Source: Tissierella sp. (GTDB lineage: Bacteria > Bacillota > Clostridia > Tissierellales > Tissierellaceae). From it: a stretch of DNA of 64,000 nt. Shown in pieces: positions 31,828 through 32,819 of the stretch; within the stretch, counting starts at the first letter, position 1; every line of letters begins with the position of its first letter. A program made the translations under genes and the position numbers. The notes below the pieces were generated by a model. The model searched no databases. It was given only the letters and a program-made list of their open reading frames with translations, and was not told the DNA's origin. The DNA lies in assembly GCF_029266915.1 (NCBI RefSeq), contig NZ_JARIEF010000082.1:1-64000 (forward strand). Direction: 5' to 3'.

Positions 31828-32049
31828 TTACACTCTATCCATATCATTTAAAGCTTCTTTTAGTTTTTCACATTCTTCATCAGTTAATGTTATACCTTTT
31901 CTCATCTTACCATCTTCATGGTTCCAATCTCGAAGATCAAATTTAGCAGGACGGTTATTCCAACTAACCTTGTTTAACTCTTTTGTCCAATCACCTTTCT
32001 CTGAAAGAACTGCTAGCTTTTCTACAATATCATATGTTATTTCAGCCAT
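31828..32049 (-). CDS. PC4/YdbC-family single-stranded-DNA-binding protein
   Basis: This 73-residue protein has the PC4-like beta-sheet pattern with WTKELNKVSWNNRPAKFDLRDW and KGITLTDEECEKL, as in Bacillus YdbC. The family binds single-stranded nucleic acids. Two promoters are suggested: a sigma-B-like one and a weak TATAAT further upstream (32119-32114) whose -35 area falls in the first LexA-like box. It is divergent from the YdjM-like gene. Confidence 0.85.
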   Translation of the reverse strand: MAEITYDIVEKLAVLSEKGDWTKELNKVSWNNRPAKFDLRDWNHEDGKMRKGITLTDEECEKLKEALNDMDRV

Positions 32050-32086
32050 TATTTACACTCCTCTTTTCTTTATTCAATACTACTTT

Positions 32087-32110
32087 ATACCCTTAGATTA
32101 CAATTTAAAG
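32087..32110 (-). promoter_or_regulatory. Sigma-B-like promoter of the PC4/YdbC gene
   Basis: Minus strand CTTTAA (32110-32105), 12 bases, GGGTAT (32092-32087), about 38 bases before the start codon. Confidence 0.5.
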
Positions 32111-32139
32111 CATATTATATAACTTTTCCAACTTAAAAT

Positions 32140-32151
32140 GAATGTATGTTC
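32140..32151. promoter_or_regulatory. LexA-like box 1
   Basis: GAATGTATGTTC differs from the Firmicute LexA core GAAC-N4-GTTC by one base. It is centred 24 bp from a second such box and lies where the -35 of a minus-strand TATAAT (32119-32114) would be. Confidence 0.55.
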
Positions 32152-32161
32152 AAAACATGTC

Positions 32162-32190
32162 TTGAATATACGTTCTAAAAGCGATATAAT
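32162..32190 (+). promoter_or_regulatory. Sigma-A promoter of the YdjM-like gene, overlapped by LexA-like box
   Basis: TTGAAT (32162-32167), 17 bases, TATAAT (32185-32190). The second LexA-like box covers the end of the -35 and the start of the spacer. Confidence 0.65.
32164..32175. promoter_or_regulatory. LexA-like box 2
   Basis: GAATATACGTTC, one base off GAAC-N4-GTTC, positioned over the -35/spacer of the plus-strand promoter, where LexA binding would block transcription. Confidence 0.6.
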
Positions 32191-32234
32191 GTAATTCATG
32201 CACATTGCTAAATTTAAATGATTGAGGTGAAACT

Positions 32235-32819
32235 ATGACAGGAAAAACTCATATAGCTATAGGTGTTGCGGCAGGTCTTACTATGGCCTATGGTAAGCCT
32301 GTAAATGATCAACTTATAATTATAGCTGCTTCTACACTTGGTTCTTTAATACCTGACCTAGATCATCCAAAGTCAAAATTAAATCAAAAATTGTTGTTTT
32401 TAAAAAACGAACTCTATCGTATAATGTTTTTCATATCTATAGCTGCCTTATTCCTATATATGTATTTACAATATAAGAATAGTATCTTTGCCTTATTATC
32501 TATTATATTCTTGTTTATAGGCACATCTACCCACAGAGGATTTACTCATAGTATTATGGGGTTTTTAATATTTACCTACGTACTAAGAACGATCACCCTC
32601 CAATATGGAATAAACTATCTTTATGAAAGTATAAGCCTAGGATACTTGCTTCATCTGTTAGCAGACTTCTTAACTCCAAGAGGAATAAAATTATTTTATC
32701 CTTTGAATGTAAATATAGCATCGCCTATAATTATAAATCCAAATAGCGGAATAGACAGTGTAATCTTTACACTTGCAAGTATATATTCTCTGCTCCTTCT
32801 CTTTAGATTTATCTTATAA
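32235..32819 (+). CDS. YdjM/YvsG-like membrane-bound metal-dependent hydrolase (DUF457)
   Basis: Multi-pass membrane protein of 194 residues with the conserved metal-type motifs THIAIG at the N-terminus, LGSLIPDLDHP near 36-46 and THRGFTHS near 98-105, followed by LHLLADFLTPRG. E. coli YdjM is a LexA-regulated membrane protein of unknown biochemical role; here too two LexA-like boxes sit in front of the gene. GAGGTG precedes the ATG. Confidence 0.85.
   Translation: MTGKTHIAIGVAAGLTMAYGKPVNDQLIIIAASTLGSLIPDLDHPKSKLNQKLLFLKNELYRIMFFISIAALFLYMYLQYKNSIFALLSIIFLFIGTSTHRGFTHSIMGFLIFTYVLRTITLQYGINYLYESISLGYLLHLLADFLTPRGIKLFYPLNVNIASPIIINPNSGIDSVIFTLASIYSLLLLFRFIL

Follow-up and report, generated by a model that had tools for sequence, protein, structure and literature searches.

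The 12-mer GAATATACGTTC (box 2, 32164–32175, forward strand) is very probably a LexA operator of ydjM, which encodes a 194-aa membrane protein (32235–32819, forward strand) in the window, the 64-kb stretch of Tissierella sp. DNA that was analysed. The significance of this box rests on its position at the ydjM promoter and on its conservation upstream of ydjM in related bacteria. In undamaged cells, LexA bound to box 2 would lie over the end of the -35 element and the spacer and would block RNA polymerase. After DNA damage, RecA-stimulated self-cleavage of LexA would free the promoter and YdjM would be made.

The ydjM promoter and the LexA consensus of the genome

The intergenic region that holds the LexA-like boxes (32050–32234) is flanked on one side by ydjM (Pfam YdjM PF04307, E 6e-33) and on the other by a minus-strand gene (31828–32049) encoding a 73-aa single-stranded-DNA-binding protein of the PC4/YdbC family (Pfam PC4, E 4.3e-11). 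The ydjM promoter (32162–32190, forward strand) is composed of a -35 TTGAAT (32162–32167) and a -10 TATAAT (32185–32190) separated by 17 bp; it scores 10/12 in the promoter scan and is kept in relatives. Four bases of the -35 (32164–32167) and the beginning of the spacer lie inside box 2, so sequence and promoter scan agree with an earlier sequence-only reading that had placed this box over the -35 and spacer. The same reading had described twin 12-mers, each one base off the LexA core and 24 bp apart, and both were found where it had located them. Box 1 (GAATGTATGTTC, 32140–32151, forward strand) and box 2 each differ from GAACNNNNGTTC by a single mismatch, a T for C at position 4, with a centre-to-centre distance of 24 bp. 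The motif match alone is unremarkable for either box and proves nothing, because one-mismatch sites are common in the window (17 vs 13.1 expected).

The host genome (2.15 Mb in 122 contigs, 88.9% complete with a contamination estimate of 6.8%) encodes both lexA (C19:29023–29631, E 1.3e-70) and recA (C19:37893–38852). The regulon was mapped with pattern searches for GAAYN4GTTC and RAACN4GTTC, together with the stretches around the sites. Only seven perfect GAACN4GTTC palindromes were identified in the genome. Of these, C19:29803 lies in the lexA promoter, C19:38907 precedes recA by approximately 40 bp and C115:1255 is found where uvrB starts. The remaining four are intragenic or, in the case of C46:7788 (GAACAATTGTTC, L356 around 2289), part of a terminator-like hairpin, and the latter was rejected as an operator and regarded as a false positive of the motif scan. 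The lexA promoter also contains the boxes AAACN4GTTC, GAACN4GTTT and GCACN4GTTC, and a box array is likewise present in nearly all of 29 relatives. Sites of the form GAATN4GTTC are mostly intragenic across the genome. The perfect GAACN4GTTC boxes at this genome's lexA, recA and uvrB exclude a different LexA consensus; judged from these promoters, the cognate consensus is GAAC-N4-GTTC, which both boxes upstream of ydjM match with one mismatch.

Position 4 is a C in 91 of the 92 lexA boxes of the order and a T in both window boxes. The lone T among the lexA boxes belongs to GAATATATGTTC, a variant of the ydjM type in the lexA promoter of one relative (L026, G023), where it stands beside two other boxes. 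A T at position 4 may set a weaker operator, and given this base the affinity of the window boxes for LexA may be low.

A further LexA-type box, GAACGTTTGTTT, is located between an S4-domain gene and recF (L357 2203–2214; G000:C24:4202–4213) with a TATAAT-like sequence nearby. The ATG scan of this locus gave only a 129-aa piece of RecF, which may mean that the reading frame is interrupted in the assembly.

Conservation of the ydjM box

Orthologues of ydjM were taken from 60 relatives and supplemented with 80 loci found among 84,980 named species, and boxes with at most one mismatch were counted up to 200 bp upstream of the gene, with first-order shuffles as the control. A box was found at 29/35 ydjM loci of Tissierellales (shuffle mean 0.67, maximum 4) and at 15/47 loci of Clostridiaceae and similar bacteria (shuffle mean 1.14, maximum 5), both counts being inflated by the relatedness of the genomes. 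Relatives without any ydjM box exist, for example at loci L181, L187 and L203. Box density upstream of ydjM is 2.7/kb compared with 0.19/kb elsewhere in the same loci, a 14-fold difference, though the rest of these loci is largely coding, which makes the shuffles and permutations more suitable as controls. When the half-site was permuted, GAAC was found at 28/34 ydjM loci and every other permutation at 0–4, and gap lengths other than 4 yielded 0–2. The box is kept among orthologues and is placed to block the promoter, either on the -35 or in the start region. These comparisons support the conservation of a predicted ydjM operator across Tissierellales and part of Clostridiaceae.

Box 1 and the PC4/YdbC gene

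The role of box 1 is uncertain, as it could be an extra operator of ydjM or an operator of the PC4 gene. It would most likely be an accessory second site for the same regulator, acquired within the lineage, or else a chance match. That box 1 is such a match without function, with box 2 working alone, is a distinct possibility. The box is not conserved at its position in orthologous promoters, and intergenic DNA of such composition is expected to hold about 0.13 boxes/kb, or roughly 2% for the region; against this, four other loci (L058, L180, L185 and L191) have the identical 12-mer as their ydjM box and Salmonella ydjM is reported with doubled boxes (PMC8072944). A genome of the same genus has one ydjM box and no PC4 match. 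The YdjM of Tissierella creatinophila DSM 6911, the closest named relative in culture, shares 82% identity with that of the window.

Rather unlikely is a single divergent SOS operator, in which the PC4/YdbC gene would be repressed through box 1 and ydjM through box 2, bringing a single-stranded-DNA-binding protein into the damage response. Box 1 is located about 100 bp upstream of the PC4 gene near a minus-strand TATAAT (32119–32114), a possible -10 read from the sequence, and had been proposed to lie at the -35 of that promoter. The TATAAT is present, but the -35 is a poor TTCATT (32142–32137) that overlaps box 1 by 3 bp, and the promoter scan does not list this promoter. Across the order, 4/91 PC4 promoters, the window included, carry a box (shuffle mean 3.1), which is no enrichment; these promoters double as a negative control for the ydjM box count, and the survey led to the rejection of PC4 as a general SOS gene. 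The box is not conserved among PC4 orthologues, and the four PC4 genes closest to that of the window in the survey of relatives have none. The divergent arrangement of ydjM and PC4 was seen only in this genome among the loci surveyed. The two genes are convergent and about 640 bp apart in another genome (G010), where a toxin-antitoxin-like gene pair (76 and 81 aa; L093 1786–2254) lies between them.

The divergent operator draws support from two genomes of another family (f3), in which a perfect LexA box is located 33–36 bp upstream of PC4 at the head of an operon-like run, with about 0.08 such boxes expected in the survey. The same-strand gene run that follows (L254 5261–9501 in G059; L255 2611–6960 in G046) encodes proteins of 366 and 339 aa, a B12-binding radical SAM protein and a methyltransferase-like product, and is possibly a damage-inducible biosynthetic operon. 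The 366- and 339-aa proteins gave no Pfam match in G059, the genome tested. The closeness of PC4 and uvrB in a further f3 genome (G019) had raised the idea that PC4 heads a uvrB operon in this family; this was rejected, as uvrB carries a separate box there and the G019 PC4 carries none, and the PC4 runs of G046 and G059 lead to other genes.

The window PC4 protein itself is a member of its family (PF02229, 42.6 bits with a cut-off of 25). Its solved relatives are 3pm7 (E 3.3e-19), 2l3a (SP_0782) and 2ltd (YdbC), and like the latter two it belongs to the PC4/YdbC family, with which its 73 residues align over nearly the whole length. Within that family LexA control is supported in two f3 genomes at most, and the papers searched describe no bacterial PC4 gene controlled by LexA. 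A few lineages may thus have placed PC4 under LexA, but this is not the rule, and the link of the PC4/YdbC gene to LexA is weak. The single-stranded-DNA-binding partner that had been suggested for ydjM is not borne out, since the PC4 box is not enriched, box 1 is not conserved and the divergent pair was found in this genome only.

Promoter architectures and predicted SOS control of YdjM

The surroundings of box 2 recur in 13 divergent ydjM promoters that share cTTGAAT-N-tatGTTCg (2.0 bits for the fixed positions), with little conservation around it and a constant 17-bp spacing between TTGAAT and TATAAT. Three ydjM architectures are seen overall. The -35 lies in the left half of the box in the TTGAAT type, and apparently in the right half in ydjM of Caloramator and several Tissierellia, where AAACACTTGTTC puts TTGTTC at the expected -35 position. 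In the third type, represented by ydjM of Anaeromonas, Thermohalobacter and Caloranaerobacter, the box follows the -10 immediately and reads as a perfect GAACTAACGTTC or a near variant of it. Because placement of the box on the promoter differs in other families, it appears to be the operator itself that is conserved at ydjM, not merely the promoter. The changing architecture argues against simple inheritance of the box, and a box sequence that is kept while moving relative to the promoter would be best explained by LexA control. It is highly improbable that conservation concerns just the TTGAAT/TATAAT promoter, or a site for some other regulator, with an incidental likeness to LexA boxes: the left half-site does serve as the -35 in Tissierella-type promoters and the T at position 4 is unlike the lexA boxes, but tatGTTCg is kept although it is outside the hexamers, other families place the box after the -10 or use the opposite half as the -35, several of their ydjM boxes are perfect GAACN4GTTC, and changed half-site permutations and gaps give nothing.

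The product of the gene under this predicted LexA control scores 114 bits against PF04307 (curated cut-off 29). Its AlphaFold2 model is mostly helical (pLDDT 93), and a Foldseek comparison of the model with the PDB found no solved relative (best E 1.4). The invariant residues include H6, D41, H44, H100, R101, H105, H140 and D144, which would suit a metal site. YdjM, an inner-membrane protein, is probably a metal-dependent hydrolase whose substrate would lie in the membrane or envelope, an activity suggested by the conserved His and Asp residues; hydrolase function is a prediction that is repeated for the E. coli protein in PMC11442139. YdjM is an SOS gene without an established job, and an operator that is kept and re-placed across Tissierellales and part of Clostridiaceae, alongside the cases described in E. 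coli, Salmonella and S. aureus, argues that the protein is useful in very different bacteria when damaged, which makes functional studies of YdjM worthwhile.

Earlier reports place ydjM under SOS control in E. coli, where it is listed as a LexA target (PMC4576408), in Salmonella, where it is a LexA target with two boxes (PMC8072944), and in S. aureus, where a YdjM-UDPGP-HlyIII operon has the SOS box CGAAAATATGTTCG (PMC11442139). The link across phyla put forward in the sequence-only reading is therefore real and had been described before, and the ydjM box found here, for which the comparative support is good, would extend it. What is common across phyla is the regulation and not the box, because the E. 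coli LexA motif differs, being CTGTN8ACAG according to PMC4234289. It is doubtful that YdjM is a general SOS effector, repeatedly re-recruited under unrelated LexA motifs and in at least three architectures, with the doubled operator placing PC4 under damage control in this lineage.

The Tissierella locus resembles those of E. coli and Salmonella in having a YdjM-family membrane protein under a predicted LexA operator, with GAACN4GTTC in place of the CTGTN8ACAG-type motif (PMC4234289). With S. aureus it shares a box of the Gram-positive type whose left half deviates at its fourth position and which precedes a YdjM-motif gene (PMC11442139). Bacillus subtilis uses the same type of box. The window ydjM is followed by a convergent gene of the uridine kinase family and therefore does not form an operon of the S. 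aureus kind, and the PC4 gene is divergent. Literature searches that combined LexA with Tissierella returned unrelated papers only, and those for clostridial LexA and a metal-dependent hydrolase returned none. The regulons of C. difficile (PMC4234289) and C. acetobutylicum (PMC3828012), as far as the excerpts of these papers go, likewise have GAACN4GTTC/T boxes and lexA, recA and uvrB-type targets, with no YdjM gene named among them. In contrast to these clostridial regulons, ydjM is a predicted LexA target in most Tissierellales and in some Clostridium and Caloramator.
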